Below, in pieces: positions 20,949-64,000 of a stretch of 64,000 nt of DNA. Numbering within the stretch: position 1 is the stretch's first letter; each line of letters opens with the position of its first letter. The notes beneath the pieces are model-generated. The model searched no databases, had not been told where the DNA came from, and saw only the letters and a program-made list of their open reading frames with translations. This DNA is from a virus: positions 1 to 64,000 of IMG/VR virus record IMGVR_UViG_3300021478_000022, one strand, 5' to 3'. The translations under genes and the position numbers were made by a program.

Positions 20949-21094
20949 CGTCCCCTCCACCAGCGCCACAGCCGGCGCCACCAGCGACTATGGGCCTTGT
21001 GCTGGGCCAGCATCCGCTTCGTGTCCTCGTTGAGCAACAGGACAGTGCCCTTGCCTATCTGCACTGTCTTGGGGGGCTGGCGCTTGAAGAACAT
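20945..21094 (-). CDS. Small protein with Trp/Arg-rich tail
   Basis: The 49-residue protein starts MFFKRQPPKTVQIGKGTVLL and ends with SRWWRRLWRWWRGR. The tail resembles membrane-active tryptophan/arginine peptides. Its start overlaps the HldE-like stop as TGATG, and its stop overlaps the next start as ATGA. The function is unknown; a membrane role is only a guess from composition. Confidence 0.6.
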   Translation of the reverse strand: MFFKRQPPKTVQIGKGTVLLLNEDTKRMLAQHKAHSRWWRRLWRWWRGR

Positions 21095-22461
21095 CACTTG
21101 TTCTCGTTGTCGACAATCGTGTCCACGATGGACAGTTCCAGGTCGCTACAGTGGGCCGGGAACGGGCTCTCCGGTGAAAACCGCACGTCCTTCACCAGAT
21201 CGTCACCAGGCACCCGCTGGCCCGCATATTCCGGCCCCTTCGTCAGCACGTCCGGCTGCAACATGCGGATGGCCTCGATGGGTTCTTGAGCGCTGAACGT
21301 GACCACCCAGTCCACCGCTTCCATGCTCTCCAGTATCTGCACCCGCTCTCCCTCCGACAACACAAAATCCGCAGGGCGCAGTGACCGTGCCGATTCGTCT
21401 GAGTTCACCCCCACCACCAGCACGTCCCCCTGCTGCTTCGCCCAGCGCATCAGCCACGCATGTCCCGCATGGGCGCCCAGCCTGAACACCCCATTGGTGA
21501 ACACGATGCGCTTACCCGGTAGGGACTCGCGCAGGTGGCGCAGGTCGGTGAAGTCGATGCGCTTGCTGCCGGTCATGTCCTTGCGGACCTCGAATGGGTA
21601 TGGCGGTCGATTGTGCTGGTGCTGCACGTAACAACGTCCTGCTGCGTGGGCCACCTGTGCGGCTTCTCCAAGTCCCAACCCGTGCGCTAGCCCAAGGACC
21701 AAATGCGCTGCGAAGCAATCGCCTGCCCCCACGTGGTTCCTGCAATGCACCGGCCCCGTCACAACAGGCTCAACAGTCCAGACGGAATCGTCAGGCCAAT
21801 GAATCGTCGGCACAAGTCCACCATGCGTCACGACACGTCGAATACCAAGCGTCTCCTTGTGGCAATCGTATTCACCATTGCACTTCAAGAGTGCCCCGTC
21901 GTATGTGATCGGCTTCTGCTTTGCGTCCGCCACCACAGGCATGCGCTGCACTGTGCATTCAGCGATGATGCGCTTTATCGTGTCGCGGTCCAAGAACCCC
22001 TTGTCGTAGTCCGAGATCAGCACCGCATCGAACCCCATCGTCCGCACGGCCTTCACGGTCAGGTCACGGATTTCGGTGAGTTCGGCAGTGGCCAATCCGT
22101 AGTTGGCTGACTCGTGGTCCCTCCGGAACACGATGCGGCCTGTTGCATCGTCGATGTAGCGGGTCTTGCGAATGTAATCGCGCGTGTGGTGGCAAAGACT
22201 GGCATCGAAAGCGGCGGGGTGCGAGCCGCGATGCCAAGACGCAATCAGGAAGGCATCCGCATTCCAGTGTGCCAACTGATGAGCAGCATTCGCGGCACCA
22301 CCCGGACAAACCGCCGACCGAGAAGCGATAAACTTCTGGCAGCCATCCTGAGATGGCTCAAGGCGACCGTGATAATACTCATCAACCATCGCGTCGCCGA
22401 TGACAGCGATCTTGAGCCGCTTCGCCCGGTCCCTCTCGGTCAGCTTCTGCACTGCGTCCAT
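21094..22461 (-). CDS. hldE: Bifunctional HldE-like heptose kinase / nucleotidyltransferase
   Basis: The 455-residue protein joins a PfkB-type sugar kinase (about residues 15-290) to a cytidylyltransferase-fold domain (about 315-450). The kinase has GGAANAA at 54-60 and the catalytic loop NHVGAGD at 242-248. The second domain has FTNGVFRLGAHAGH with the HxGH motif at 331-334. In bacteria HldE phosphorylates heptose 7-phosphate and then adds AMP on the way to ADP-heptose, an LPS-core precursor. GGGAGG precedes the ATG. Family-9 glycosyltransferases that could use ADP-heptose are encoded elsewhere in the window. Another sugar substrate is possible. Confidence 0.85.
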   Translation of the reverse strand: MDAVQKLTERDRAKRLKIAVIGDAMVDEYYHGRLEPSQDGCQKFIASRSAVCPGGAANAAHQLAHWNADAFLIASWHRGSHPAAFDASLCHHTRDYIRKTRYIDDATGRIVFRRDHESANYGLATAELTEIRDLTVKAVRTMGFDAVLISDYDKGFLDRDTIKRIIAECTVQRMPVVADAKQKPITYDGALLKCNGEYDCHKETLGIRRVVTHGGLVPTIHWPDDSVWTVEPVVTGPVHCRNHVGAGDCFAAHLVLGLAHGLGLGEAAQVAHAAGRCYVQHQHNRPPYPFEVRKDMTGSKRIDFTDLRHLRESLPGKRIVFTNGVFRLGAHAGHAWLMRWAKQQGDVLVVGVNSDESARSLRPADFVLSEGERVQILESMEAVDWVVTFSAQEPIEAIRMLQPDVLTKGPEYAGQRVPGDDLVKDVRFSPESPFPAHCSDLELSIVDTIVDNENK

Positions 22462-38995: not shown

Positions 38996-39318
38996 GGTTG
39001 TTCCTCCAGCCACAGGATTTTCTTGCCTTTGTTCAGCGCGTGAGCTAGTTCGCTGCGTGTCGATTCGCCCACGTACCCGCCGACGTTCAGAATCAGCACT
39101 TCGTCGGCCAGGTCGATTTTGTCCTTGTGCAAGGCATCCAGAGCGATCTTTTGCTCAAGAGTGCAGCCGAATGCCTCGCCGTGGGTTTCTCCAGCAGCGT
39201 GCGGGTAAAAGCCAACGGACAGCACGATCTTGCCAGCCATCGTCTGGCGATAGTTCGCTTCTTGGAATGCCTTCCAGAAGCGAGTCGAGCCACAGAGACA
39301 GACAATCGTTCGTTTCAC
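38971..39318 (-). CDS. Nucleoside 2-deoxyribosyltransferase-like protein
   Basis: The 115-residue protein has the family start VCLCGSTRFW and the conserved KIDLADEVLILNVGGYVGES, followed by SELAHALNKGK. Such enzymes exchange or cleave the base of (deoxy)nucleosides. The GTG at 39318 overlaps the glycosyltransferase stop as GTGA. It could remodel nucleotides, or the fold may serve another sugar-nucleotide step. Confidence 0.78.
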   Translation of the reverse strand: MKRTIVCLCGSTRFWKAFQEANYRQTMAGKIVLSVGFYPHAAGETHGEAFGCTLEQKIALDALHKDKIDLADEVLILNVGGYVGESTRSELAHALNKGKKILWLEEQPCPVPTTA

Positions 39319-41141
39319 TTCAGCCACCTCTCAATCCAGGTAAATATTTCGCTCACATTCTCCCTGCCGTATACGCAGCCTTTGTAGCGGTCCTGATAGG
39401 CCGGATTCGTCCACGAGTCCTTCATCGCCTCGGAGAAGCTGACCAGCCGTTCCTTGTGGGCACTATTTCCAGCTGGCCTCCACCAGGTCACAACGGGGAC
39501 GCCCATGTAATGGGCCATGATTCCTAATCCGCATTGGTAACTCACCACCACCTTGGCCTTCTTCAGGAACGCCAGCGTCTCCCCTATCTCCATCTTTCCA
39601 ATCAAGTCCATCCAGACCATCCCCGCCTCCGCCACCCCCTGTTTGACCCACTTGTCCCAGAACGACCTGTCGTAAGGTGCCCCCACCACGGCGATGTTCA
39701 GCCCCCGCTCCGTGAGACGCTGGCCCAGCTCGACCCAGTGCTTGGGCTCCCACAGCCACCCCATGTTGTGCCCTTCCTCCGTGTGCCCCGACTCCGGGCC
39801 CAGGTAGAAGGCCGCGAACGGCGCCGCCGCATCCCCGACGTCCGAACCACGCTCGGTCCCGGTCCAGTCGAACTCGTCAATGACCGCCCAGTCGACGGGA
39901 TGCTCCGGCAACCACGTCTCCAGTCGCTCTCCACGCTCCAGGACCGTGTTAGGGATCAAGAAGTGATAGCCACCCCTCTCCCCGTCCGGGACGTAGCGGT
40001 AGCGGCCTTTCTCGTCGTTCTTCGGCCCCGTCTCCAGGATCGGCACGTCGAGCAGGTTAACGCTCTTGATGAACGGGAATCGGGACAGGAAGGGCACGCT
40101 CCTCCGGTCCACTTCCTTGTTGGCGTCCCCGTTGAGCAGGACGTTGATGGGTTTGTCCCCGGCGATGGACTTGATCTTCATGAGGGCCCACATGCAGTCA
40201 CCGATACCCTGCGGGAGAACGAAAGGAACCACGGAAGGACCCTCGGGGGGAGTGAAGTGCAAGACCTCGCACAGCCACCGTCTGACCTCACCCGGCAGCC
40301 CCCACTCCCCATCGTAGGTGCGGTACTGGTAGTGCCGGACGAAGTATTCCGCCACCCCACCATGATCGGCCGGGGAGAGGCTTCTCCAGTCCTTGGGGAT
40401 GAGATGGAGGGTGTTCTCGGCAGGGTCGTGAAACTGGATGGGGTGGTGCCCGACCCAGCAGATGAGGGAAGGGGTGTTGGTCGCCGACGCCACCTTGCCG
40501 GGGCCGGAGTCGATACCCACGAACGCCTCGGCGCAGTGGATGAGCGCCGCGATCATCTCCGCGTCCCCGGTCCCGAACCCGCCCCAGATGTCGTCACTGG
40601 CAGGTCGGGGGCAGAAGATGGTCTTCTGGTCGGGCAGGGGGGAGCGGTTGTCCCAGTCGAGGATGACGGGGATGCGACCGGAGGCGCGGATCAGGTCGGT
40701 TATTGATTGCATCTGGAAGTGGTGTAAGTTCTTACGCCAATTCGAGGTATTGCCCTCATAATGGCAAATCACGACGGCTGCCTTCTCTCCGTTGATCGAG
40801 GCGCCGATGGACTGGTAGTAGTCCATCGCCTTCTGACGCGCGACGGCACCAATGCGGATTTCGTAGCGCCCAAGGTCGAGGTCGTAGTTCAGGCCGAAGT
40901 TCTCCGCTAGGCAGTTGGTGATCTTGCTGTTGGGACGGTCGGTGTACTTGCAGTAGTTCTCGTAAAATCCGGCATGATGCACGGAGTCGTAATCCGACTC
41001 ATTTAGCTCCGGCTCCTGATCGTGCGAGACGCGATGGCACAGACCGATCAGCGCCGTGTGCTTGCCACGGCCGACCCTGATGGTGACTTGCCAGTCGGGA
41101 CGGTGACGGGCAAGGTGCTTGAGAACGACGCCCATTTGCAC
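39315..41141 (-). CDS. Large glycosyltransferase with family 9-like domains
   Basis: The 608-residue protein looks like two family-9-type (heptosyltransferase-like) halves. The first (residues 1-240) ends with a typical nucleotide-sugar site (AEAFVGIDSGPGKVASATNT). The second (about 310-608) has LPQGIGDCMWALMKI and a similar later site (KAKVVVSYQCGLGIMAHYMG). It may transfer heptose or a similar sugar. The usual N-terminus with the first GLGD motif is missing here. It lies just upstream in another frame (see 41142-41193), so this GTG start is probably not the original one. Confidence 0.75.
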   Translation of the reverse strand: MQMGVVLKHLARHRPDWQVTIRVGRGKHTALIGLCHRVSHDQEPELNESDYDSVHHAGFYENYCKYTDRPNSKITNCLAENFGLNYDLDLGRYEIRIGAVARQKAMDYYQSIGASINGEKAAVVICHYEGNTSNWRKNLHHFQMQSITDLIRASGRIPVILDWDNRSPLPDQKTIFCPRPASDDIWGGFGTGDAEMIAALIHCAEAFVGIDSGPGKVASATNTPSLICWVGHHPIQFHDPAENTLHLIPKDWRSLSPADHGGVAEYFVRHYQYRTYDGEWGLPGEVRRWLCEVLHFTPPEGPSVVPFVLPQGIGDCMWALMKIKSIAGDKPINVLLNGDANKEVDRRSVPFLSRFPFIKSVNLLDVPILETGPKNDEKGRYRYVPDGERGGYHFLIPNTVLERGERLETWLPEHPVDWAVIDEFDWTGTERGSDVGDAAAPFAAFYLGPESGHTEEGHNMGWLWEPKHWVELGQRLTERGLNIAVVGAPYDRSFWDKWVKQGVAEAGMVWMDLIGKMEIGETLAFLKKAKVVVSYQCGLGIMAHYMGVPVVTWWRPAGNSAHKERLVSFSEAMKDSWTNPAYQDRYKGCVYGRENVSEIFTWIERWLK

Positions 41142-43616: not shown

Positions 43617-44350
43617 CGGATGAACTCCTCCCACATCGGTCGCCACAGTTGCGGTTGCTCCAGCCACCCCCAGTACACCCCAGGCTTGGAGTCGATGCGT
43701 CCCGTCAGGGGAGGGTCGGACATCTCCTCCATCTTGCGGAAGAACGCAGGCCACTTGGGGTGACGGAGGCACTCATCTAGTGCAAATGTATGCGGATGCC
43801 GACCGAACTTCTTCTGAAGCACTACTAGGCAATCTGCGCGGTCGTAAGACTCATGCGCGTTCCGCTGATTGCACTCCCCGTAGACGTACTCACGGTCCTT
43901 GCCCCACTGCCCGAACTCCTCCGGGTGCTCATCCGTGAGAATGTCCTCGATGAAGTAGTAGCCCCCCACCTTCAGGTTCGGCCAGAGGATGTCCCGGCTG
44001 ATGCGCTGCCACTCCGCCCGGTGCCCGCAGTCGTCGATGATGACGTCGAAGTATTCGGGAGGGAACAGCAGCGCGATGCCGGGGTCCTGCTGGAAGCGCT
44101 GGTAGATGGTCAGGCGCGGATCAGTGACCTCGCGGCAGTCGTGCAGGTCGATGGCGTGGACTTCCCCCAGCGGGAACATCTTGAGCCAGAACTTCAGGGA
44201 GTTGCCGTGGTCGATGCCCAGCTCCAGAATCTTTGCCGGGAAGGCGGTCATGGGACCGAGGAATCGCTCGTATACGGGCATATAGGTATGTTGGCCCTTG
44301 TCTGTGCCACATTCCCTCGCAACTCTTTCCCATTCGCAAGAGAACGTCAT
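43613..44350 (-). CDS. SAM methyltransferase, macrocin O-methyltransferase-like
   Basis: The 245-residue enzyme has GTDKGQHTYMPVYERFL, then ILELGIDHGNSLKFWLKMFP and FDVIIDDCGH. This pattern is typical of MycE/TylF-like and rhamnosyl O-methyltransferases that methylate sugar hydroxyls. The start overlaps the HNH gene stop as ATGA. It probably methylates a glycan made by the neighbouring enzymes. Confidence 0.82.
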   Translation of the reverse strand: MTFSCEWERVARECGTDKGQHTYMPVYERFLGPMTAFPAKILELGIDHGNSLKFWLKMFPLGEVHAIDLHDCREVTDPRLTIYQRFQQDPGIALLFPPEYFDVIIDDCGHRAEWQRISRDILWPNLKVGGYYFIEDILTDEHPEEFGQWGKDREYVYGECNQRNAHESYDRADCLVVLQKKFGRHPHTFALDECLRHPKWPAFFRKMEEMSDPPLTGRIDSKPGVYWGWLEQPQLWRPMWEEFIR

Positions 44351-44922
44351 TGCACGCTCCTCCAGTTGTTCCCGTTCCTTATCTCTTTGATGGCACCATA
44401 AGTTACACCAAACTTGTCAGCGATGGCTTGCAAGGCACCCTTGGGCAATCGCTTTTGACGGCCAACCATTCCTTGAGCTATGACGCGACGTATTTCAACA
44501 ACAGCATCACGGCTTAGCTTTGCCATGCCATTGCGTTCTCCGGCATTGTCGGTGCCGTGGAACGCGCGGTCGTCCTTGTTTTGCTTGGACGTTCCCCATT
44601 GCAGATTGTCGAGTCGATTGTTCGCTGGATTCCGGTCGGGAAAGTGCCGACATTCCATGCCTTCGGGGCAAGGGCCGACGAAAGTTTCCAGAACTAGCCG
44701 ATGGATGTAAGTCGCGATACTTTTGCCCTTTTTGCAAAGGCTCACGAATACGTGGCCGTACTGCTTCAATGCTTGCAATTTCATTATCCGTTCTGGGATG
44801 CTGTAAGAATGCGTCCTGAAGCCACCTCGCGGAACGGAGCGGGCCAAAGATTTCACCCGTCCAAGATTCGACACTTGGTACAGCCCTTCGTAGCCCTTGA
44901 CGTCGCGCCATTCTTCGTTCAT
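44347..44922 (-). CDS. NUMOD4/HNH homing endonuclease
   Basis: The 191-residue protein has an N-terminal NUMOD4 motif (WRDVKGYEGLYQVSNLGRVK) and an HNH core (IHRLVLETFVG, then CRHFPDRNPANNRLDNLQWG). A C-terminal helix-turn-helix follows (LQAIADKFGVTYGAIKEIRN). It is a free-standing homing endonuclease set between a glycosyltransferase and a methyltransferase. Unusually, it has exact ATGA overlaps at both ends. Its insertion did not break either neighbour. Confidence 0.88.
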   Translation of the reverse strand: MNEEWRDVKGYEGLYQVSNLGRVKSLARSVPRGGFRTHSYSIPERIMKLQALKQYGHVFVSLCKKGKSIATYIHRLVLETFVGPCPEGMECRHFPDRNPANNRLDNLQWGTSKQNKDDRAFHGTDNAGERNGMAKLSRDAVVEIRRVIAQGMVGRQKRLPKGALQAIADKFGVTYGAIKEIRNGNNWRSVQ

Positions 44923-45968
44923 AGCATCCCCATCACTTTCAGGAGTTTCGTTGCCCTCGCCGCAGTGGTGTGATTCTTCCTCGCATACTCCAAGAGCGCC
45001 TGCCTGCGTGGAGTCTGATCGTTCGACAGAGCATGGTCGATACAGTCGGCCAGTCCGTCCAGGCCGCACTCGAAGCACGTCTCCGGTGGGAACCACGGCT
45101 CCCTCCGGTAGGCCGGGTAGCAGAGCAGGATCGGGATGGCACCAGCTGCCGCCGCCTCGTAGCACCTGAGCGATTCGCAGTCGTCCGCCCCCGGAGGGAC
45201 CAGGGCCAGCTTGGACTGCTTCATGATCTCCCAGTAGGGCTCCCAGCCTCCCAGCGTGCCCGTGCAGGCGATGGAGTGGTGCATGGTGTGCGTGGAGAAC
45301 AGTTCCCGGAGCATCCGCCAGCGTACGGGCCGGTCGGGATGGCACGACCGTGGATTGCCTGCGAAGAACACGTCGAACGGTCGGTCGCCTTCCCACCATT
45401 TGTCGTCTTTTGTGGGCCAATAATTTCCAAGTACGGCCTGTTCGACTATCTCGCGTGCTTGTTCTCGCGCCGATGGTTTCGGAGTTTCTTGCGGGAACAT
45501 CCGCTCGGGCATGGCGAACGACAGGTGATGCGGACGCATGGGGTAGGGGATGGCGTCGTTGATCTCCCGGCGGAAGTAGGCGTCCACGGGGATCTGCGGT
45601 GGCTCGTGGTGCCATGCCGCATCCCATCCCTCGACGTAGGCGACTTTGCCGTTGGGAGCGAGCAGTTCCTTGATGACCCATTTGGCCCAATCCCAGTCAT
45701 GTTCACGCACAAAGCAGGCGTTCACCACGATCAGATCGAACCACGGGCACCAGTCCTGAAGCACCTCTCCTTCCCTCGACCCACTGATGGCCCGCACCTC
45801 GGGATGCGGTCCCGTGCCGTACATCGCGTCCAGGCTGCTCTTGTGCAGCCAGGGCGAGTTCACGGCGTCCACGACATTGGGCTCGCCTAGAACCTCCTGT
45901 AGGCCGTCCCAGAGGCAGGCAGAGATGTAGTCGGGGTCGTTCTTGCATGTGACGAACAGGCACTTCAT
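44919..45968 (-). CDS. Glycosyltransferase, paralogue of 47505-48461
   Basis: The 349-residue protein has ACLWDGLQEVLG at its start and the C-terminal site PGADDCESLRCYEAAAAGAI, which resembles CgeB or exostosin-like glycosyltransferases. It shares both ends with the protein at 47505-48461, including the final TTAARAT-LLKVMGM, so one arose by duplication. The ATG overlaps the previous stop as ATGA. The acceptor is unknown. Confidence 0.75.
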   Translation of the reverse strand: MKCLFVTCKNDPDYISACLWDGLQEVLGEPNVVDAVNSPWLHKSSLDAMYGTGPHPEVRAISGSREGEVLQDWCPWFDLIVVNACFVREHDWDWAKWVIKELLAPNGKVAYVEGWDAAWHHEPPQIPVDAYFRREINDAIPYPMRPHHLSFAMPERMFPQETPKPSAREQAREIVEQAVLGNYWPTKDDKWWEGDRPFDVFFAGNPRSCHPDRPVRWRMLRELFSTHTMHHSIACTGTLGGWEPYWEIMKQSKLALVPPGADDCESLRCYEAAAAGAIPILLCYPAYRREPWFPPETCFECGLDGLADCIDHALSNDQTPRRQALLEYARKNHTTAARATKLLKVMGML

Positions 45969-53614: not shown

Positions 53615-54880
53615 TCAAGCCTGATACCGCAAAATCGCTGACGCCACTTCTTCCGACGGGATCATGGCCATACATTTTGGCGCAGGCGGCTCGGTCAGCA
53701 CTGGGTTCATGCACAGGTCACCGTCCTTCTCCGACCCGTCGTTCAGCGGCACCGTGCGCGACTTCCAGCAGGCTGTGGTGCGGCAGCAGTCCAGCGCCCC
53801 CACGGTCGAGAACAGCGTCTGGAGCGGGTAGGTCGTCCAGTGCCGTGGTTCCCTTGCCCCTCCGATGGTCACGGCAGGTTTCTCCAGAGCTGCCGCGAGG
53901 TGCTGGAGCATCGTCACCCCCGACAAGACCCCCTGTGAGTGGTAAACGAGCCGCACGAGCTGTCTGAGGCTGGTCTTGCCCAAGAAGTCGATGACCCCGC
54001 GCAGAGGCTTGTGGATGTGCTCGTGCGACCCAACCTGCACGAACAGCACCTTCCCTTGCAAGCGATCCACCACCTCCTGATAGAAGGGGTACTGCTTGGC
54101 AGTGTAGTCGGACTTCACTCCGGCGTTGACGAGCCAGAATTTCTGGTCGCGCTTGGTCGCCTCGGTCACCTGATTCATCCACGACTTCTCCTCCGGCGAG
54201 AGCCACAGCATCGGCCGATTCGTGTGGCACTTCAGCGGCACCTGTAGCGCCTCCCCCAAGAACTCGGTGTACGCCTCAAGGAAGTGGATGGCGCGCTGGT
54301 TCGACTCGTGGATCGCCGGGTAGTGTACGACCACCTCCTCGGCGCCCATCGCCTTGGCCGTCTCCACCGTAACCACGTCGGGGTTGTGCTCCCAGAACTC
54401 CGGGGCGCTCGTCTCCACAGCCGTGATGAACCTTCCGGGGTGCTGCTTGTGGAGGCTGTAGACCCCGGCCGTCATGCACAAGACGTCGCCGGGTGAGAGC
54501 ATGTGACGGAGGAGGAGGACTCGTGGTGCTTGGGTCATGACTTTCGGCCTGTAAATGCACTGGGAACAGTCGGTCAGGGTCACATGGTCGTTGCGGTTGG
54601 GCTGGCGGCGCCCCGGACACTTGCACTCGAACAGGTCGAGGAACTTCGACCCGCCGCACTGGACGCACTCGCGCTTCTGGATCTCGCCCTTCTCATCGCG
54701 GACGCGCTTCCAGAGGTAGGGGCAGCGTTCCACCTTGACACCGTGGACGCCGCTGCCGCCCCAGAGGCGGTTGTAGTCGGGATTGGTGTGGTACAGGTAG
54801 CAAAGGCGGCAAAAATCCGTGCTGTACGGCTGGCCGTCTGGCGGTATCCGGTCGCAGGCGCAGGGTCTCACAGCGTCCAT
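53615..54880 (-). CDS. Glycosyltransferase family 9-like protein with cysteine-rich N-terminus
   Basis: The 421-residue protein has an unusual cysteine-rich N-terminal domain (about residues 5-115, with CQ-like pairs CVQCGG, CKCPGR, CSQC). A family-9-type glycosyltransferase follows (LLLRHMLSPGDVLCMTAGVY, then VYHSQGVLSGVTMLQHLAAA). The PGD motif replaces LGD. It is the first sugar enzyme after the virion genes. It probably transfers heptose or a related sugar; the N-terminal domain may bind zinc or the acceptor. Confidence 0.75.
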   Translation of the reverse strand: MDAVRPCACDRIPPDGQPYSTDFCRLCYLYHTNPDYNRLWGGSGVHGVKVERCPYLWKRVRDEKGEIQKRECVQCGGSKFLDLFECKCPGRRQPNRNDHVTLTDCSQCIYRPKVMTQAPRVLLLRHMLSPGDVLCMTAGVYSLHKQHPGRFITAVETSAPEFWEHNPDVVTVETAKAMGAEEVVVHYPAIHESNQRAIHFLEAYTEFLGEALQVPLKCHTNRPMLWLSPEEKSWMNQVTEATKRDQKFWLVNAGVKSDYTAKQYPFYQEVVDRLQGKVLFVQVGSHEHIHKPLRGVIDFLGKTSLRQLVRLVYHSQGVLSGVTMLQHLAAALEKPAVTIGGAREPRHWTTYPLQTLFSTVGALDCCRTTACWKSRTVPLNDGSEKDGDLCMNPVLTEPPAPKCMAMIPSEEVASAILRYQA

Positions 54881-55557
54881 GTCAGGGTCCCTGAAACGTT
54901 GCCGCAGAGGCACGGCGATTGGCCTAGTTCCTTCACCTGATCGAACCGAACCAGGAATGACTGTGGGGTGTCGCAGTTCGCCACCGCAGGCGGCTCAGCG
55001 ATGTACTGGATGTTGCTGAAGTCGACGGCGCAAGTGAAAGCCCTCCACTGACTCCCGGAGCACTGCAAGCCCACCCGACACTGGCTTATGAGCCCGCTGG
55101 TCTGGTTGGACACCCAGGCGTTCAGGGACGGCTGGAACGCTGCGGTGAGGGTCTGGTTGCAGTTGAAGGTGTTGCCGATGGTCACATGGATGGTTCCCGG
55201 CAGGCTGCAGTTGCACGACAGGCTCGACGCGCTGGGGAACGACCCCACCGAGGTCGCCGACGAACTACCCACCGAAGCACAGCAGAGTGAGTTGTTCAGG
55301 ATCTGGAACTGACACGTCGTCCCGGAGATCACCACGGGGGGCCAGAAGATGTTATCGCAGGTCGAGCGCGGATCGTCGTACACCAGCTGGTTCGTGCCGT
55401 CCGAGCCGATGATGGACAGGACGTACCCTCCCGGCACTCCGGTGGCGTTGGTGATCTGGATGACGTACAGGACACCGCCGACCAAGACGTAGCCGTTGTA
55501 GTTGCCGTCCGAGTCGACAATCATGCAAACCTGAAAGGGGACGCAGGGTAGCGCCAT
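54868..55557 (-). CDS. Virion-type beta-rich protein
   Basis: The 229-residue protein is rich in Ser, Thr, Asn, Gly and Cys. Its two domains resemble beta sandwiches (GYVLVGGVLYVIQI, IHVTIGNTFNCN). It follows the serine-rich protein and is probably a tail or fibre component. The ATG at 55557 is chosen; a GTG three codons earlier directly follows the previous stop. The role is inferred. Confidence 0.55.
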   Translation of the reverse strand: MALPCVPFQVCMIVDSDGNYNGYVLVGGVLYVIQITNATGVPGGYVLSIIGSDGTNQLVYDDPRSTCDNIFWPPVVISGTTCQFQILNNSLCCASVGSSSATSVGSFPSASSLSCNCSLPGTIHVTIGNTFNCNQTLTAAFQPSLNAWVSNQTSGLISQCRVGLQCSGSQWRAFTCAVDFSNIQYIAEPPAVANCDTPQSFLVRFDQVKELGQSPCLCGNVSGTLTWTL

Positions 55558-55566
55558 GGGGAACAC

Positions 55567-56607
55567 TCAGAAGGTTATTCTAACGTCGATACCAGCAATC
55601 GTTGGTATACAGTTGCAGGCCACCGGCAAACTGGTGGCCTCAAGAACGAACGGGCTACAGTTGGACACCAGTCCGGTAGACTCCTGTCCGTTGATAATCA
55701 GATGCCATATCCCACCACCACTGGTCGGTTGACACTTCACTGCAAAGGTGGGAGCGCTCGACGTTGGGCACAATCCCAGCACCGAGAAGTTTTCCCACTG
55801 GTTGGTCGTCGGGTTGTAGGTCAGGGTATAAGTCCCATTGCAGTTTGTCGTGCCCGTGACCGTGGCGAAGATCGTGTTCGGGACCGTCAATCCTGGACAG
55901 CACGTCTGGTTACCGCTGCTGGACGAGGACTGGCTGGGCAAGCTGCTCTGGAAGCTGCTGGACGAACTGAGCAGACTGCTTGGCTGACTACTGACACTCG
56001 AACTGGACGATGAACAGATCGGTGTCACCAGCAGGCAAAACTGGGTCCGCAGGTTGCAACTGCTCGCAGAAAACTGACTGGAAATCTTGCTGGTGACGCT
56101 CGACACGACGCTGGTCACCGAACTCGACGGCTGGCCGCTCGTGATGGACGTAGGGGACGAAGGCACCGACACGGCACTGCTGGGTTGGCTGGGCTGACTC
56201 ACCTGACTCGACGTCACACTGGAGACGTGCGACACGACCGAACTGACAGATGACAGAGCCGACGAGACGAACGATGACTTCTGCGAACTGGCACTCGACC
56301 CCGATATGGACGAGAACGACCCCCGTCCCACACAGCAGATCAGCGAGACGACGTAGAGCGGCAGTCCGTTGAAATTCCCCACCAGTCGCGCCCGGTAGGT
56401 GCCGCGCGGGACAGGTACGCCATTCGGCTCGAATACCCAGCCTGCCTCCCGGTCCCTGAGCGTTGGCACCCCACCAGCAGCCTGCTGGTTCTGGCATGGG
56501 TAGACGGAGCCTTGTGCCGGTCCCGTGACGCGGATGACGCTCGGGACGACCGGATAGACGGGCTGGCGCGGTCCGAAGAACGGGGGGACAAGGTTGGTTG
56601 ACAGCAT
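55567..56607 (-). CDS. Serine-rich virion-type protein
   Basis: The 346-residue protein has an N-terminal domain (residues about 1-95) related to that of the next gene (PPFFGPRQPVYPVVPSVIRV; FEPNGVPVPRGTYRARLVGN). A long Ser/Val/Thr-rich linker follows (about 96-235), then a beta-rich C-terminal domain. This is typical of an elongated fibre or spike. One base separates it from the neighbouring gene. No enzyme motif is visible. Confidence 0.6.
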   Translation of the reverse strand: MLSTNLVPPFFGPRQPVYPVVPSVIRVTGPAQGSVYPCQNQQAAGGVPTLRDREAGWVFEPNGVPVPRGTYRARLVGNFNGLPLYVVSLICCVGRGSFSSISGSSASSQKSSFVSSALSSVSSVVSHVSSVTSSQVSQPSQPSSAVSVPSSPTSITSGQPSSSVTSVVSSVTSKISSQFSASSCNLRTQFCLLVTPICSSSSSSVSSQPSSLLSSSSSFQSSLPSQSSSSSGNQTCCPGLTVPNTIFATVTGTTNCNGTYTLTYNPTTNQWENFSVLGLCPTSSAPTFAVKCQPTSGGGIWHLIINGQESTGLVSNCSPFVLEATSLPVACNCIPTIAGIDVRITF

Positions 56608-56608
56608 G

Positions 56609-57562
56609 TCATTTGAAGGTCGTCACGATTCCCGCCCACGATGCTTGGGTCAGTCCCGACAGGGAGGCACTTGGCGCCGTGGTGTTCGACAGGACGCGAT
56701 AACCCTCCGCCACCGCTATCGCTGTCCCGGTGATGGATTCGGTCACGTCTTCCCCACCGGGCGTGAACCCGCCGCCCCACGAGTACGCCCCAGAATACCC
56801 CATCAGGAGGAAGGATGCCTCCACATATTCGCTCGGAGTGGTCGTCGTGCCCGTGCCAGCGGTGGGAGTAGAGGTCATGCCGTTGCCGACGCCGTTCAGG
56901 TCCTTGACGCCAGTGATGCCTTTCACCTGAACCGCTTGGATCGTGATAGCCGCGGCGATGCCGCTGGCGGCGAATGCCTCTATATCCCCCGTCAGACCTC
57001 CCCCTATCGTCCAGCAGCCTATCAGCGATGTTTGCGATGGTGTGTTGACGGCGTTCTGCAAGGTCATCGGCAGACCGCCGTAGTAGAGCTGCAAGCCCTC
57101 GTTCTGTCCCACCAGCGTCGCTGTGACCAGCAGCATCGTCCCTGGCGCTGTGGTGATGCTCGGCAGCGTCAGTTGGGTCACAGCGACAGCCTGAGCCGTG
57201 CCAAGGTTGGTGCGAACGATGCCGGGGAGCGCCGCTGCGGAGGAAGTGCTGCTGGACGAGGAGCTGGCACTGCCGCCCAGCGGGCAGCAATTCGTGACGT
57301 AGAGGGGCAGCCCGGCGTAGTTGGTCACAAGGCGACCATCGTAGTAACCGGGTCCCAGCACGATGCCGTTGGGCTCCATGACGTACACAGGCACCCGGTC
57401 GCGCGGGGTCAGGCCGTTGAACTGCACAATGAAGGCCGGGTAGACGTTGGCCCCCAAGATGGCTGGAGCGTAGATGCGCAGGATCTCGTTCACCTGCGGG
57501 TAGATGGGCTGCTCTTGCCCCAAGAATGGCTGCGTCAGGTCGGTGGAGTCGGCGATCTGCAT
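56609..57562 (-). CDS. Virion-type protein with domain shared with the serine-rich gene
   Basis: The 317-residue protein has an N-terminal domain (LGQEQPIYPQVNEILRIYAP; YVMEPNGIVLGPGYYDGRLV) similar to the serine-rich protein. A short Ser run follows, then a long beta-rich part (about 120-317). The two genes probably arose by duplication of the attachment domain. The TAATG overlap links it to the gene upstream. A tail-fibre or spike role is inferred. Confidence 0.62.
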   Translation of the reverse strand: MQIADSTDLTQPFLGQEQPIYPQVNEILRIYAPAILGANVYPAFIVQFNGLTPRDRVPVYVMEPNGIVLGPGYYDGRLVTNYAGLPLYVTNCCPLGGSASSSSSSTSSAAALPGIVRTNLGTAQAVAVTQLTLPSITTAPGTMLLVTATLVGQNEGLQLYYGGLPMTLQNAVNTPSQTSLIGCWTIGGGLTGDIEAFAASGIAAAITIQAVQVKGITGVKDLNGVGNGMTSTPTAGTGTTTTPSEYVEASFLLMGYSGAYSWGGGFTPGGEDVTESITGTAIAVAEGYRVLSNTTAPSASLSGLTQASWAGIVTTFK

Positions 57563-58806
57563 TACACGAACCCTGTGAGCCCCTTGAGATTGATGGGGAA
57601 AAGAGCCTCATCGAATACGAATCCCCTGATTATCTGGGTCCGCCAACCAGCCCGCCGTTCGTCCTCAATGCCCAGCTTGTAGGTCTGGTAGTACCTGACC
57701 CCATCGACCTGACTTCCAGTCACGAACGGCAGCACCCCCGTGTACACTTGGCTCATGAACCCCGCCGTGGCGCGATAAATCCGGTTGTAGAAGTTCGACA
57801 CGTCCTGCGCCGCGATAGCCGCTGCCGTAGCCACATCCGCCGCCAGAGGCAGGCCGTTGACGTCGTACCGGACCGTGAAATACGACCACAGATACCCCGT
57901 CCCCGCTGCACTGGCGAACTGCGCCGGGGCCGGGACGTTGAGCGAGTAGAGCGGCGTCAGTTGCCACTGGAGCGAGTCACTCCGCACAGTTTCTTCGGTT
58001 CCGTACCATTGATTCCTGCGGTGGAAGTAGACCGTCACGGACGATGGGGCGCGTCCCGACCCCACGTCGATGTACTCCATGTCGTCTTCGAGGTCGCCGA
58101 AGAACTGCGTCTGCTTCGCCGTGAAGGCCCCATCCGGCGCGCCAGCAGCGACGATGGTGTAGGGGGCCGCTTTGGTCAGGTCCTCTGCGATGGTGAACCC
58201 GAGGTAGTCCATGATCTGGTTCAATGCTTCCCAGGCTGAAACCCCCGGAAAGATGAACCCTTCTGGGGTCCCGGTGACCGATTGGGGTAGGCCGGGGAAA
58301 GGCCCCAGGAACTGCACCATTTGCGCCCAGAGGTCAGCTATCATCGAAGCCCAGGTCCAGTTCACCCCTCCGTAGAACGTGCCCGGATAGGCCGGCGCCT
58401 GCACGTTGTACTGGCTCACCGTGGGGAACTGAAACCAGGGGTTGTAGAGCACCCCCTGCTGATCGGTGATCTGCACGAGGTAGAGCGCATCGGGGTCCGC
58501 CGCCTGCCCCCGGCTGACACAGCGCGACTGCACGATGGTCAGACCCGTGAAGATCAGCGGCGGGTTGTGCAAGTCGTCGAACTGGAGTTCGAGGTTCGTG
58601 AAGTAGGGGTTGATGGTGTTCAGGTCGGATCGCTTGAGAAGTATCCAGCCCACGGTGGGCCAGCGCCCGGAGGGGATGTAGAGGGAGTTGGCCTTGTCGA
58701 GGTCGGGTAGGGCATCGCGGTGGTAGTAGGACCGGGCTTCGCGCACGAGGCGCGGGTCCTGTAATTCCACCCCCTGCGTACCAGCGAACCCGAAAGTATT
58801 GGCCAC
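57562..58806 (-). CDS. Structural protein of unknown function
   Basis: The 414-residue protein has mixed composition with many aromatic residues (WTWASMIADLWAQMVQFLG). I see no known motif. The GTG at 58806, with GAGG upstream, starts about 8 bases after the FAD enzyme stop. Its place among virion-type genes suggests a tail or baseplate protein. Confidence 0.6.
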   Translation of the reverse strand: MANTFGFAGTQGVELQDPRLVREARSYYHRDALPDLDKANSLYIPSGRWPTVGWILLKRSDLNTINPYFTNLELQFDDLHNPPLIFTGLTIVQSRCVSRGQAADPDALYLVQITDQQGVLYNPWFQFPTVSQYNVQAPAYPGTFYGGVNWTWASMIADLWAQMVQFLGPFPGLPQSVTGTPEGFIFPGVSAWEALNQIMDYLGFTIAEDLTKAAPYTIVAAGAPDGAFTAKQTQFFGDLEDDMEYIDVGSGRAPSSVTVYFHRRNQWYGTEETVRSDSLQWQLTPLYSLNVPAPAQFASAAGTGYLWSYFTVRYDVNGLPLAADVATAAAIAAQDVSNFYNRIYRATAGFMSQVYTGVLPFVTGSQVDGVRYYQTYKLGIEDERRAGWRTQIIRGFVFDEALFPINLKGLTGFV

Positions 58807-58816
58807 ATGCCATTCC

Positions 58817-60748
58817 TCAGACTGTCGGCCCATCCGCCTCAAGCTGCGCCACCGCCGCCGTGACGGCACCGGACTTCACCTTGAAGTGTTCTACCAGAAG
58901 TTCGATGCCCGTGTTCGCCGACATGAGAGCGGCGTTCAAGGTCGAGTCAAAGAAGTAGTCCCCCACCAAAAAGATGCCGGGGTGCTCAACGGGTTCCGGG
59001 CTGTGTTCGCCCCGCAATTCCTCCGCTGGCCATGAACCCGGCTGCGCATTGATTGCCCCGACGTACCTATCAACCTGCGCCTCGACCAGTTGATCCTCCG
59101 CATCGTCGCGCATGAACGGTGGTAGGGATTCGAGGACGTGGTTCACGATGCACTCGTCGTCCTGATTCGCCGAGCACATGAGCAGCGCGTCCCCGCCCGC
59201 CAAGAGGAAGCTGAGGACGTGACCACCTTGCGCCGCACGCTGCCTCAGCACCTTCTCCTGCCTGTTGGCGCGCTCGTGGGCCTTGGCGTAGGAGGAGTCG
59301 TTTTCCGCCATGTCGCGGCGCTCGACGGCCTCGTGGTAGCAGATGTACTTCCAGTCCTCAAGGTCCAGCCGGTCGTCGATCCAGATGTGCATGGGCGGCA
59401 TGTAGTCCTCGCCGCGTGCGAGCAGTTCGAGGTCGTTGGCCCCTTCCACCATGTCCATGTCGTGCTCGATCTTCACCTTGTCGCCGTCCACGATCTGCAC
59501 GGTGATGCCTTCCAGTGCCCCGACCGTGTGCGGCAGGTTCTCCGGTTTCTCTCCGGGCATCATCGCCACGATCTCCTGCCACAGCTTCTCATCCACCTTC
59601 ACCTTCGTGGACTTCTGGTGCTTGGCCCAGCGCGTCGAGTCGTCGTAACAGCACAGGCCGTTCATCATGTCCATCATCCAGAACTCGCCCGGCAGCTTCA
59701 GCTTCTCCCACCACTTCGTCCGGAACAGCATCGACACCCGGAGGTAGTGCGCTGGGAGGTCGTAGTGGGCGCAGACCTCGTGAATCGCGTCCGCCAGTTT
59801 CCCTTCCCACTGGATGGTCCTGAGCCAGTGGTTCGGGAGAGCGACCACCACCGCGTCGAAGTCCTCGAAATGCTCCGCGATGTAGTCCTGACCCGACTCG
59901 CGAGTGAACACCCGGTAGTTCCCGTCGATCTTCGCTATCCGCGTGACCCGATGGCAGGTCTTGACCTCCGCGTCAATCTTCGCGGACAGCGCCTCCGGGA
60001 TGCGGCCGATGCCACCGACGACGTGGTAGAGCTGCATATAGTCGTCGTTGTCCATCAAGATGTTCTTGATCCCGTTCAGGCCGTTGCAGGTGTGACTCTC
60101 GGTGGCCAGGTCGGTATGCACCGCCGTCTCGATGAAGTCGCGGGCCACCTTGTCGTCCCCAACCTCCTCCATCAGGCACTCGCGGAAGGTCTTGGGCGCC
60201 CACGGATGCTCGTTGTCCGGCTGCCAGCGGTGGGCGTACTTTTCCAGGGGCATCAGTTCGACCATCTTCGCGTGGAACGCCTCGATCCGCTTCCGCGTGT
60301 CGTAGCCGTGTACCTTCTCCACCTCGTCCAGGTCCCTCAGCACCTCGCCCTTCAGGATCACCGCGCCACCGGCTATGTCTACCGTTTCCAGTCCCAAATC
60401 CTTCTCGATCAGGAGGCGCATGGGGTCCTTGCCACCGGGTCCCAGGTACTCGTACAGTTCCGCGACACCCGCCTCGAAGAGGGTGCCGTCCGAGAACTCG
60501 TCGGTCATGATCTTGCCGCCGACCTCCTCGTCCGCCTCGAAGATGGTCACGTTGGCGTCGGGCAGGCGCTGGTTGATGATGTAGGTCGCGAACAGCCCAC
60601 CCGGTCCCCCTCCGATGACGGCAACGCGGGGGCCGTCTTTCTGTTTGGGGGCGCGCTTCTTGCGCGGGGCGATGCGGGTCCAGCGGCCTGGGCCTGATGC
60701 GGTCCAGCCTGAGCCGGTGGGAGGTTCGGAGCCGTAGTGCTCATCCAA
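58817..60748 (-). CDS. FAD-dependent amine-oxidase-like oxidoreductase
   Basis: The 643-residue protein has a full FAD dinucleotide site, VAVIGGGPGGLFATYI (about residues 42-57) with Glu71 and VGGKI. The C-terminal FAD segment IFLVGDYFFDSTLNAALMSA lies near residue 600. It resembles amine oxidases, protoporphyrinogen oxidases and phytoene desaturases. The TTG start overlaps the gpF stop by 8 bases and has GGAG upstream. Such an enzyme is unusual inside a head/tail operon. It could modify a sugar, lipid or pigment, or be carried on the virion; the substrate is unknown. Confidence 0.85.
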   Translation of the reverse strand: MDEHYGSEPPTGSGWTASGPGRWTRIAPRKKRAPKQKDGPRVAVIGGGPGGLFATYIINQRLPDANVTIFEADEEVGGKIMTDEFSDGTLFEAGVAELYEYLGPGGKDPMRLLIEKDLGLETVDIAGGAVILKGEVLRDLDEVEKVHGYDTRKRIEAFHAKMVELMPLEKYAHRWQPDNEHPWAPKTFRECLMEEVGDDKVARDFIETAVHTDLATESHTCNGLNGIKNILMDNDDYMQLYHVVGGIGRIPEALSAKIDAEVKTCHRVTRIAKIDGNYRVFTRESGQDYIAEHFEDFDAVVVALPNHWLRTIQWEGKLADAIHEVCAHYDLPAHYLRVSMLFRTKWWEKLKLPGEFWMMDMMNGLCCYDDSTRWAKHQKSTKVKVDEKLWQEIVAMMPGEKPENLPHTVGALEGITVQIVDGDKVKIEHDMDMVEGANDLELLARGEDYMPPMHIWIDDRLDLEDWKYICYHEAVERRDMAENDSSYAKAHERANRQEKVLRQRAAQGGHVLSFLLAGGDALLMCSANQDDECIVNHVLESLPPFMRDDAEDQLVEAQVDRYVGAINAQPGSWPAEELRGEHSPEPVEHPGIFLVGDYFFDSTLNAALMSANTGIELLVEHFKVKSGAVTAAVAQLEADGPTV

Positions 60749-62972
60749 TGTCCACTCTCCACTTCCGCGCCGCGCGAGTCACCCGCTTGCGCCGTCCCCG
60801 TCTTCCCTTGGACTTGCCAGGCTTCTTCGTGTGCTTGCCCTCGACCGCAAAATCCCCCGGAGTTGCTGGGAGCCCACCACCCGACCCGGCCATGTCGATG
60901 GTCGCGGTGTCCTCGTGCAGTTCGGGACCAGTGGGAGCGGAAGGCAAAGTTGCCGCAAGACGGATAGACAAGGGCGCTGATTCCAAGGCCCTCTGGAAGC
61001 CCGGTGGCGGCTGGAAAGACGGCATAGGGACAAATGCCGGTGGGGACGGTTCCACGCCAGTCCTGAGCCATTCCTGCGCTTCTGTGATGCCCCTCTCGGC
61101 AGCTTGGCGGATGGTGATGGGTGTGTCGGCGCAGCGGTCGTTGTAATCCCACGGAACTCGGAACATCTGCCAGACTGGATCGCCAGCGCGGTAGATGTTG
61201 GTCCCCTGTATGCCTAGCTTTTCCAGCGCCAGATGGTTCTCGCGTACACGGTTGTCGTGGATGGCATCGCGTGCCCGATAGGGAAACCCACTGCGAACGA
61301 AGGGATGGGACAACACCGTCTCCTGCCCGTCCGAGAAGGCACGCTGGATGTTCGTCCGCGCCACGTTTTCCAGATGCCCTTCCGAGAGAAACGTCCCCGG
61401 CGCGACTTGCTCCAGCACCTTCTCGCGGAACGCCTCTACGTCCGCGCCCTCAGCGACGTTCTCCGCAAGCGCATCCCGGATCTTCGTCAGCGTCTCCTGT
61501 GCATCGACCCCGGCGACCGTGAACGCCTTCTGCCGCGCCGCATCGTCCAGCTTGTCAAAGACAGGCCGCGTCACCACGTTCTTCCGCGCCAGTTCCCGCG
61601 CCGCTTCCTCGATGATCGGGTAATGGACCCGCTCCCCTCCCGGTGGCGCTTGCGGAGTGAAGGGCCTTGTCGGCGGGATGCTCTCGCTGGAACCCAGCGA
61701 TTGCTGGACATAGTGCTGCTCCGCAGGTGGCAATTCGTAGATGGCCCGATCGCGCTCCCCTTGCGGCATGGCGCGGAGTCGGAACAGAAGGGATTGGGCT
61801 TCATCGGGAGGGAGGGTTGGAGGTGGCGGGGGCGCACTCCCCGCCTGTGGTAACGGTGGCAACCTCTCCGCCACCTCCGACGCTCCCGCCAGTAGTGCCG
61901 CCAGCTGGGTCGTCCCCAAGAGGTCGGCCAGTTGCAGACGGTACTTGTTCACGAACGTCACGACCTGATGCCCCATCTCGCTGGGGTCGGCTGATTGGAG
62001 CGCGTCCCTGAGTTCGCGCTTGGCCGTGGCGCTGAGCTGCTTGGCCACAGTCATGGTGCGGTTGAGGATGCCCTGCGCACGACGGTCGAAGATGTCGTGG
62101 GCGAAGTAGGCGGATAGGGACAACGGCGCTGCAAACAATCCTTTGTCCCTGTTCAGGATGGCGCGCGCCAGGGACGGTCTGTCTGTGGCTTTGTATTTCT
62201 CCTTGAGCTGAGTGAGATAGCCAGGATTTACACTGCCAAGCGCATTAGCCATCTTCTGGGCGACATCTTCATCCGGTTCGCCCTTGTGCATCTTGTATTT
62301 CACGAACTCGTGCAAATCCTCGAAGCGATCCGGCAATTGCCGCGATACGGCTGGCGCTGCTACCGCCTGTTGAATGATGGGCTGTGCTGCTACCGGAACT
62401 GTCGTCTGCGCAGCGATTGGAGTCGCCTTCGGTTGTGCAGGTGGCTGGGACGCTGATGCCGGTTCAGGTCTAGCTGACTCCAAGTCGATGGCTATCTTTG
62501 ACCCTGTACGAGCGCGAACGATTATCTTGTTGCCACTAATGTCAAGTATTGGCCCACGGAGCGGTGGCAATCTCGACCCGCCGCCCTCACCGTCATAATA
62601 GAGAATCTGCTGGCCGACTTTAGGAGGGTTGGCTGGTCCGAATTTAGGCAGCTTGAAGAAGTCATCGTCTGTCGGTGGAGACGGACGTGGTGCCGTTTGT
62701 TGTTGTGGTGTCGGCTGTTGAGGCGCCTGCTTCTGCCCACTCTGTCTCCATACCTTACCTCCTTGCGGTCCCACTCCGACCTGAACCCATCCCGGCCCCG
62801 GCGGCTGAGGACCGTGAAAGTTCCCCTGCGCATCGAGCGCCAGGGCAATGTCGTCCTGCATCGCCAGTTCGGCAACGGCCAGCGCCTCGTCAAGATCGCG
62901 CGTCTCCGGGTCTTCGATGGCGCGCAGAAGCAACTGGGCAAAGCGGGCGCCGCGTTCCTTGGTGATGCTCAC
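60741..62972 (-). CDS. Head morphogenesis protein, Mu gpF/SPP1 gp7-like
   Basis: The 743-residue protein has the family core near residues 530-640 (LENVARTNIQRAFSDGQETV, then DNRVRENHLALEKLG, GDPVW, WDYNDRC). It is much longer than usual. A Pro/Gln-rich N-terminal region and a C-terminal basic end (KPGKSKGRRGRRKR) flank the core. The protein joins the head interior near the portal. The GTG at 62972 overlaps the portal stop as GTGA and has GGAGG upstream. Confidence 0.85.
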   Translation of the reverse strand: MSITKERGARFAQLLLRAIEDPETRDLDEALAVAELAMQDDIALALDAQGNFHGPQPPGPGWVQVGVGPQGGKVWRQSGQKQAPQQPTPQQQTAPRPSPPTDDDFFKLPKFGPANPPKVGQQILYYDGEGGGSRLPPLRGPILDISGNKIIVRARTGSKIAIDLESARPEPASASQPPAQPKATPIAAQTTVPVAAQPIIQQAVAAPAVSRQLPDRFEDLHEFVKYKMHKGEPDEDVAQKMANALGSVNPGYLTQLKEKYKATDRPSLARAILNRDKGLFAAPLSLSAYFAHDIFDRRAQGILNRTMTVAKQLSATAKRELRDALQSADPSEMGHQVVTFVNKYRLQLADLLGTTQLAALLAGASEVAERLPPLPQAGSAPPPPPTLPPDEAQSLLFRLRAMPQGERDRAIYELPPAEQHYVQQSLGSSESIPPTRPFTPQAPPGGERVHYPIIEEAARELARKNVVTRPVFDKLDDAARQKAFTVAGVDAQETLTKIRDALAENVAEGADVEAFREKVLEQVAPGTFLSEGHLENVARTNIQRAFSDGQETVLSHPFVRSGFPYRARDAIHDNRVRENHLALEKLGIQGTNIYRAGDPVWQMFRVPWDYNDRCADTPITIRQAAERGITEAQEWLRTGVEPSPPAFVPMPSFQPPPGFQRALESAPLSIRLAATLPSAPTGPELHEDTATIDMAGSGGGLPATPGDFAVEGKHTKKPGKSKGRRGRRKRVTRAARKWRVDIG

Positions 62973-64000
62973 GCCGCCCTCCTGATGCGCCACGCAATCT
63001 CTTTGATCCGGTCAGGCAATGACCCCAGACTGAACCCTTGCGACTGCATCGGCAAGGGGCCAGTTGGCTGCGTGTCGGGAGCGGCGCCCGGCGCTATGGG
63101 CATCGGTTGCCCCGGTGCCTGATTCATGGCCTGCGCCGGGTCCTGACCCATCTGCGTCTGCCGCTTCGTCTGGAGCAGCGGCTTGACCTTGCACTCGAAC
63201 CGCACCTCCCCGTACCGCCACCGCACCAGCGGACGCAGGACTTGCTTCAGGAACAGCGTCAACATCGCATCCGCCAAGCGCTGCTGGAGCATCAGGAACC
63301 CTTCGAGCGGGATGGCGCGACCGCTATAGCCTGACCCCGATTCCGCCGCCTCGAACAACTCAGACGGCACCCCGATGCCCTCGCGGATTTGCTTGATGAG
63401 GTACTGGATGTACTCGATCAACCCAGCGACGTTCAGGGTGTTCTTGGGGATTTCGACCGACCACTTCTCCCCACCGCCCTGATCGGACGGGTAGGGCGTT
63501 GACGGCAGACCAATGCCGGCCCCAGCCTTGAACAACTCCGCCATCTGACGTGCCGAGTCGCGAGCGTACTTCCGTGGTCGCCCTTGCGAGTCCAGCGTGG
63601 TCGCCACCGACCCCAGTTGCCCCTGAATGTCCTCTTCCGGGTACTTCACCACCACCCCGGAGTAGGCGAACCGATAGATACCTCCGTCCACCACCGTTTC
63701 CGCTGCGTCCTTCCACGCCAGACGCCTCCACGGGCGCCAGGCGCCTAGTAGTTGGCTTTGCCCGTAGTAGAGGCTGTAGCGTGGATTGTGGGCGTACCAG
63801 ACACCCTTCGCGGGGATGTCCTCCGTCGCCATCCACAGGTCCCTCGTTCCACCGTGCTGCTGGTTGTCCGAGGCTGGGTTCTGGGGAGGTGGCGCTTCCC
63901 GTGGCGCCTCGTGGATTTGCCTGACCCTGACCCCAATCGGTTTGTTGCTTTGGGTGAGCAGGAACACGTCCCGTGGGGAGAACTGCACGAAGTCCTCCCA
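62969..64000 (-). CDS. Portal protein, partial
   Basis: The last 343 residues are visible; the start lies beyond the right edge. WYAHNPRYSLYYGQSQLLGA, WRRLAWKDAAE and the region IQYLIKQIREGIGVPSELFE match the pattern of phage portal proteins. The gpF-like gene follows directly with a GTGA overlap, as is usual. Portal rings form the DNA entry vertex and bind the terminase. The Gln/Pro-rich C-terminus may be exposed. Confidence 0.82.
   Translation of the reverse strand, partial: WEDFVQFSPRDVFLLTQSNKPIGVRVRQIHEAPREAPPPQNPASDNQQHGGTRDLWMATEDIPAKGVWYAHNPRYSLYYGQSQLLGAWRPWRRLAWKDAAETVVDGGIYRFAYSGVVVKYPEEDIQGQLGSVATTLDSQGRPRKYARDSARQMAELFKAGAGIGLPSTPYPSDQGGGEKWSVEIPKNTLNVAGLIEYIQYLIKQIREGIGVPSELFEAAESGSGYSGRAIPLEGFLMLQQRLADAMLTLFLKQVLRPLVRWRYGEVRFECKVKPLLQTKRQTQMGQDPAQAMNQAPGQPMPIAPGAAPDTQPTGPLPMQSQGFSLGSLPDRIKEIAWRIRRAA

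Follow-up and report, generated by a model that had tools for sequence, protein, structure and literature searches.

A dispensable and exchangeable FAD enzyme gene linked to the MuF-type gene of a phage head operon

The DNA analysed here, referred to as the window, is a stretch of 64,000 nucleotides (positions 1 to 64,000 of IMG/VR virus record IMGVR_UViG_3300021478_000022, a virus contig of 78,687 bp). At the far end of the window, a portal gene, a MuF-like gene, the FAD enzyme gene and a virion-type gene follow each other in this order:

62969..64000 (-): portal protein, 519 aa in total, extending past the window to record position 64528
60741..62993 (-): MuF (gpF/SPP1 gp7)-like minor head protein (PF04233, PHROG 220) with a basic C-terminus
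58817..60748 (-): FAD amine-oxidase-superfamily enzyme, 643 aa, with a TTG start and no internal stop
57562..58806 (-): conserved virion-type gene forming the downstream boundary of the slot, with a likely GTG start at 58806 (listed ORF 57562-58869)

Annotated portals, among them the one from Gordonia phage GMA3, match the window portal. The MuF-like gene falls just below the Pfam cut-off for PF04233 (7.7e-6) and matches PHROG 220, "minor head protein", at 1e-25; its last 8 nt are overlapped by the start of the FAD enzyme gene. The downstream gene (57562-58869) had no database matches and is kept in all relatives. By comparison with the relative L004, its true start is likely to be the GTG at 58806, so that the 53-nt overlap with the 3' end of the FAD enzyme gene is probably a start-codon artefact. 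The neighbourhood given in a preliminary description of this DNA, in which the enzyme lay between a gpF-like head gene and virion-type genes and had an overlapping start, was borne out. Two adjacent virion-type genes (56609-57562 and 55567-56607) share the N-terminal pattern P-FLG-P-YP-V---RV--PA, then diverge, and have Ser-rich tails; tandem copies of these genes were also seen in relatives.

The FAD enzyme gene is single-copy in the source record, and its product matches the Pfam families Amino_oxidase (PF01593, 1.5e-23) and NAD_binding_8 (2.1e-7). Homologues with 55-69% identity were found in the same slot in six IMG/VR phages (L004-L009; L001 and L009 are the same contig, counted once). 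When the seven copies were compared in pairs, the differences per codon position were 0.50-0.72 at position 3, 0.26-0.38 at position 1 and 0.17-0.28 at position 2. Together, the Pfam matches, the six homologues and this pattern (position 3 far above position 1, which is above position 2) argue that the ORF did not arise by chance, and agree with the earlier claim of a complete 643-residue FAD enzyme at 58817-60748. The codon-position differences indicate that the gene is under purifying selection. All seven copies are intact, with a GC content of 44-69%, and the mean identity is 58% for the FAD enzyme compared to 51% for the portal and 52% for the downstream gene.

The following features were located within the enzyme:

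60665..60748 (-): N-terminal tag, residues 1-28 (YGSEPP..GW...GRW), before the Rossmann domain; present without the FAD enzyme in L015
60596..60613 (-): dinucleotide-binding glycine motif GGGPGG, residues 46-51; five of the six positions invariant in the seven homologues, G50 being Ala in two
59738..59740 (-): Arg337, invariant, aligned with the conserved flavin-site Lys of putrescine oxidase and LAAO
59225..59623 (-): 133-aa inserted domain, residues 376-508, containing YHEAVER, from the alignment of the seven homologues
58934..58963 (-): C-terminal FAD-site motif GDYFFDSTLN, residues 596-605; G596, D597 and F600-N605 invariant

The window protein passed the PF01593 gathering cut-off with 84.2 bits (cut-off 19.8), and the L004, L007 and L009 homologues matched the same family. 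A profile of the FAD enzyme family gave a 367-position alignment with putrescine oxidase (positions 41-407, domain E 6.7e-13) and piecewise alignments with LAAO. The FAD-binding motif residues G46-G48, G51, E71, G77-G78-K79 and G596-D597 are invariant in all seven copies; loss of such residues among homologues, which the preliminary description would have counted against its assignment, was not seen. The quality of an AlphaFold2 (AF2) model of the window protein (pLDDT 60) was too low to compare overall structures. The model of the L006 protein was of moderate quality (pLDDT 68), and supports the superfamily only, not a substrate. In Foldseek, it matched putrescine oxidase best (E 2.6e-21, TM about 0.45-0.48, rmsd about 11 Å), followed by LAAO, MAO, nicotine oxidoreductase and polyamine oxidase. 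The structure-based search proposed earlier for the closest oxidase subfamily thus supported the superfamily, with putrescine oxidase as the best match, but singled out no specific subfamily or substrate. Among the curated NCBIfam subfamily models (LAAO, putrescine oxidase and PPOX), the window protein scored best with TIGR00562, at 42.9 bits against a cut-off of 97.85, and the homologues likewise reached no subfamily cut-off. The sole PADLOC match, a weak one, was desaturase-like and covered the N-terminal half of the enzyme. Assignment to the amine-oxidase superfamily holds, with a well-supported fold and cofactor site, and it is plausible that the protein is catalytically a flavin-dependent oxidoreductase.

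The active-site Lys of the amine-oxidase superfamily is hydrogen-bonded via water to flavin N5, and is not universal within the superfamily. The phage enzymes lack it: the residue aligned with the Lys of the putrescine oxidase IKVHA motif is the invariant Arg337. With Arg in this place, the chemistry of the enzyme may differ from classical amine oxidation; the substitution would restrict the label "classical amine oxidase" but leave the fold assignment untouched. In an alignment made by eye, the carboxylate-binding Arg of LAAO faces Glu97, within the invariant sequence GVAELYEY.

In all six relatives, the FAD enzyme lies behind the portal and MuF-type genes and ahead of the homologue of 57562-58869. 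The synteny comparison called for in the preliminary description accordingly found the head-operon position to be shared, in one case with the two proteins fused. The junctions vary: the 8-nt overlap of the window is replaced by ATGA in L006 and TAATG in L008, and a 216-nt gap precedes the enzyme in L004. Only in L007 is the FAD enzyme in frame with the MuF protein, forming a single ORF of 1580 aa with the MuF domain at residues 204-319 and the amine oxidase at 1122-1556; in the window the genes are separate but overlapping. In L007, an internal ATG has a Shine–Dalgarno-like stretch ahead of it, which might allow the enzyme to be synthesised on its own in that phage. L008 and L009 retain the FAD enzyme although their upstream gene has no recognisable MuF domain. 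In L008 its product is short, reduced to the MuF N-terminal segment plus a basic tail; the L009 gene has the common N-terminal segment, yet no MuF match. Intein-like segments were observed inside the MuF domain of two relatives (L005:7608-9983 and L007:5569-10311). The MuF protein of L004 (L004:4478-9706, 1742 aa) has long N- and C-terminal extensions which, by eye, include an ATP-grasp-like region upstream of the MuF domain and further domains downstream.

Relatives without the enzyme were located by using the portal and downstream proteins as search queries. At least 10 contigs have a recognisable portal and downstream gene and no FAD enzyme, including L013, L015, L016, L017, L019, L020, L030, L032, L033 and L038; L021 and L034, two overlapping pieces of one contig, likewise have none. 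A search of 11 such records over their whole length (several are fragments) showed no copy elsewhere, only the tag in L015. The preliminary description had regarded relatives of this kind as speaking against its view of the locus, and such relatives exist: since the same portal and downstream genes occur without it, the FAD enzyme is not an obligatory structural component.

Several of these relatives carry other enzymes in the MuF slot, as would be expected of cargo. In three of them, an amidinotransferase/deiminase-like protein (PF02274, 2.8e-9; best PDB match HsvA) is accompanied by an ATP-grasp-like protein, the latter a weak assignment and intein-split in L033 and L038:

L020:3752-6230: amidinotransferase/deiminase-like and ATP-grasp-like genes
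L033:16352-19879: amidinotransferase/deiminase-like and ATP-grasp-like genes
L038:8374-13232: amidinotransferase/deiminase-like and ATP-grasp-like genes

The intein-like segments in the ATP-grasp-like protein (L033:17528-19879 and L038:10833-13232) contain LAGLIDADG. L030 and L032 have a C39-like peptidase in the slot, and L017, L019 and L021 have structural-looking or unassigned ORFs. A zeta-toxin reading of the slot gene of L016 was made by eye only and had no database support, and a MuF N-terminal helix apparently shared by the L020 amidinotransferase was dropped after giving no match at E ≤ 1.

Parts of the enzyme also occur apart from it. The 133-aa inserted domain is found in the window and L004 and is missing from the other five homologues. 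It is homologous to the C-terminal end of the L013 MuF protein (34% identity over 145 aa, E 3e-17); L013 itself carries no FAD enzyme. In L015, a version of the inserted domain is followed by the FAD-type N-terminal tag (E 1.8e-7) with no FAD domain; this homologue (L015:8617-9262) is divided between two frames, with the tag at its end. These matches indicate that the inserted domain and the tag shuffle as modules within the MuF slot. A resemblance between the tag and the PPGPGW stretch of the MuF protein was not significant (E 0.17-0.42).

Mapped on the portal tree, the presence of the FAD enzyme requires at least 5 changes, of which at least 3 are forced by strong branches. In the FAD tree the window has L004 as its sister (100/99), a pairing rejected by the portal data (lnL 258 lower, p-AU 8e-56). 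The tree of the downstream gene does not reject this pairing (p-AU 0.16), and the exchanged block may therefore include the downstream gene besides the FAD enzyme. The MuF slot behaves as an exchangeable module, as seen from its alternative occupants (FAD enzyme, amidinotransferase with ATP-grasp-like protein, C39-like peptidase and inserted domain) and from the conflict between the FAD and portal trees. The FAD enzyme is dispensable, exchangeable and MuF-linked.

No homologue was found among the INPHARED isolate phages, or in two pattern scans of the GTDB genomes, which are limited by their patterns and may miss distant cellular relatives. Plasmid matches were short or weak pieces, a longer one having 23% identity. 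A search of an open-access library of papers yielded none describing such a flavoenzyme gene in a head operon. Planctomycete-like signatures seen by eye in L001:7355-7987 and L038:9961-10836 (a LEQLERRDAP start and a DUF1559-like pilin start) give a hint of Planctomycetota hosts.

A link between the FAD enzyme and the glycan or haem genes, as suggested earlier, was not borne out. The glycan genes in question encode HldE-like (PfkB and cytidylyltransferase) and GT9 heptosyltransferase-like proteins:

21094-22461, 39315-41141 and 53615-54913 of the window: HldE-like and GT9 heptosyltransferase-like genes

These genes are kept in most of the phage group irrespective of the FAD enzyme. Strong homologues of the radical-SAM gene were seen in just two phages, one with the enzyme and one without. 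A NUMOD4/HNH homing-type endonuclease gene (44347-45690) lies between methyltransferase genes of the window.

MuF proteins such as SPP1 gp7 are located in the head near the portal (PMC5576092), and bear effector domains for which delivery to the host has been proposed (PMC5576092, PMC5512222). We consider the chances about even that the FAD enzyme is an exchangeable, MuF-linked enzyme cargo that is delivered at infection. The position, the coupling to the MuF-type gene, the one fusion, the shuffling of modules and the other enzymes found in the same place all point this way, and the synteny in six relatives together with the L007 fusion makes packaging in the virion plausible. On the other side stand the uniqueness of the L007 fusion, the 216-nt gap in L004, the upstream genes of L008 and L009 with no recognisable MuF domain, the insignificant tag resemblance, the lack of an identified immunity gene and the Arg in place of the flavin-site Lys. 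As cargo, the enzyme would be produced alongside the head proteins, either through translational coupling or as part of a MuF fusion, and would sit inside the capsid beside the MuF protein and enter the host together with the DNA. There it might act as an early effector that oxidises an amine-type substrate (an amino acid, a polyamine or an amine carried by a host molecule), yielding an imine or aldehyde and H2O2, or handing the electrons to another acceptor.

The same gene could instead encode a late auxiliary enzyme that serves the metabolism of amines, glycans or cofactors within the infected cell, and is merely expressed from the late operon and never enters the particle. Most homologues are indeed separate ORFs, the tag has no proven targeting role, and the amidinotransferase and ATP-grasp-like proteins show that other metabolic enzymes use the slot. 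However, the fixed place behind a MuF-type gene in all seven phages, the in-frame fusion, the effectors that typically occupy MuF slots (PMC5576092, PMC5512222) and the lack of specific co-occurrence with glycan genes make this explanation somewhat doubtful. The head-operon position and MuF linkage would equally suit an enzyme that acts during assembly, oxidatively modifying capsid or other virion proteins (for example, at a lysine or amine side chain) for maturation. The amine-oxidase superfamily does include protein-modifying members, of which LSD1 is one. Such a role is unlikely, since many relatives have the same portal, MuF and downstream genes and no FAD enzyme, so that assembly does not generally need it, and unrelated enzymes take its place. 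That the gene is a recently acquired, decaying host gene (a moron) with no phage function would fit its patchy distribution, but is extremely improbable in view of the seven intact copies (GC 44-69%), the codon pattern of purifying selection, a mean identity above those of the portal and downstream genes, and the absence of a close cellular relative in the GTDB pattern scans.

A more specific and very unlikely proposal is that the MuF slot of this phage group holds interchangeable capsid-borne enzymes acting on polyamines or other amines, putrescine-oxidase-like in some phages and in others an HsvA-matching amidinotransferase with an ATP-grasp-like ligase, which would alter the amines neutralising the packaged DNA or the host polyamine pool at injection. 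The analysis provides a concrete list of phage genes for studies of packaging and activity.

With the PF01593 superfamily (putrescine oxidase, LAAO, MAO and protoporphyrinogen oxidase), the phage enzyme shares the Rossmann GxGxxG motif, the acidic ribose ligand, GG[RK], the GG substrate-domain motif, the C-terminal GD FAD motif and a nearly full-length alignment with the putrescine oxidase profile. It differs in having an invariant Arg at the flavin-site Lys, Glu97 at the carboxylate-binding Arg of LAAO (by eye), an extra N-terminal tag and, in two members, the 133-aa insertion. Amine oxidases of the same fold superfamily are found in giant viruses (Fadolivirus, Marseillevirus and Pithovirus among others; BFVD), but these viruses infect eukaryotes, the genomic context is unrelated, and identity is 11-16%. 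Polyvalent proteins (Iyer et al. 2017, PMC5512222) are similarly multi-domain proteins of virion loci with enzymatic domains and MuF fusions, like the 1742-aa MuF protein of L004; the words FAD, oxidoreductase, amine and amidinotransferase do not occur in the main text of that paper. There is also a parallel in arrangement with the MuF polymorphic toxins (Jamet et al. 2017, PMC5576092), in which interchangeable C-terminal or adjacent domains are associated with a MuF head protein of tailed phages, as the FAD enzyme is by linkage and, once, by C-terminal fusion. In contrast to these toxins, the phage domain is a putative flavin oxidoreductase rather than a nuclease, ART, peptidase or RelA-like domain, it is mostly a separate ORF, and no small immunity ORF was identified for it. 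Most of the MuF-linked effectors known so far are nucleases, ADP-ribosyltransferases, peptidases or enzymes that act on nucleotides; the FAD enzyme most likely adds a new class of enzyme to the MuF/polyvalent effector slot and, if it is delivered, would extend virion-delivered effectors to small-molecule and amine chemistry, carried out by a redox flavoenzyme and its amidinotransferase/ATP-grasp alternative.
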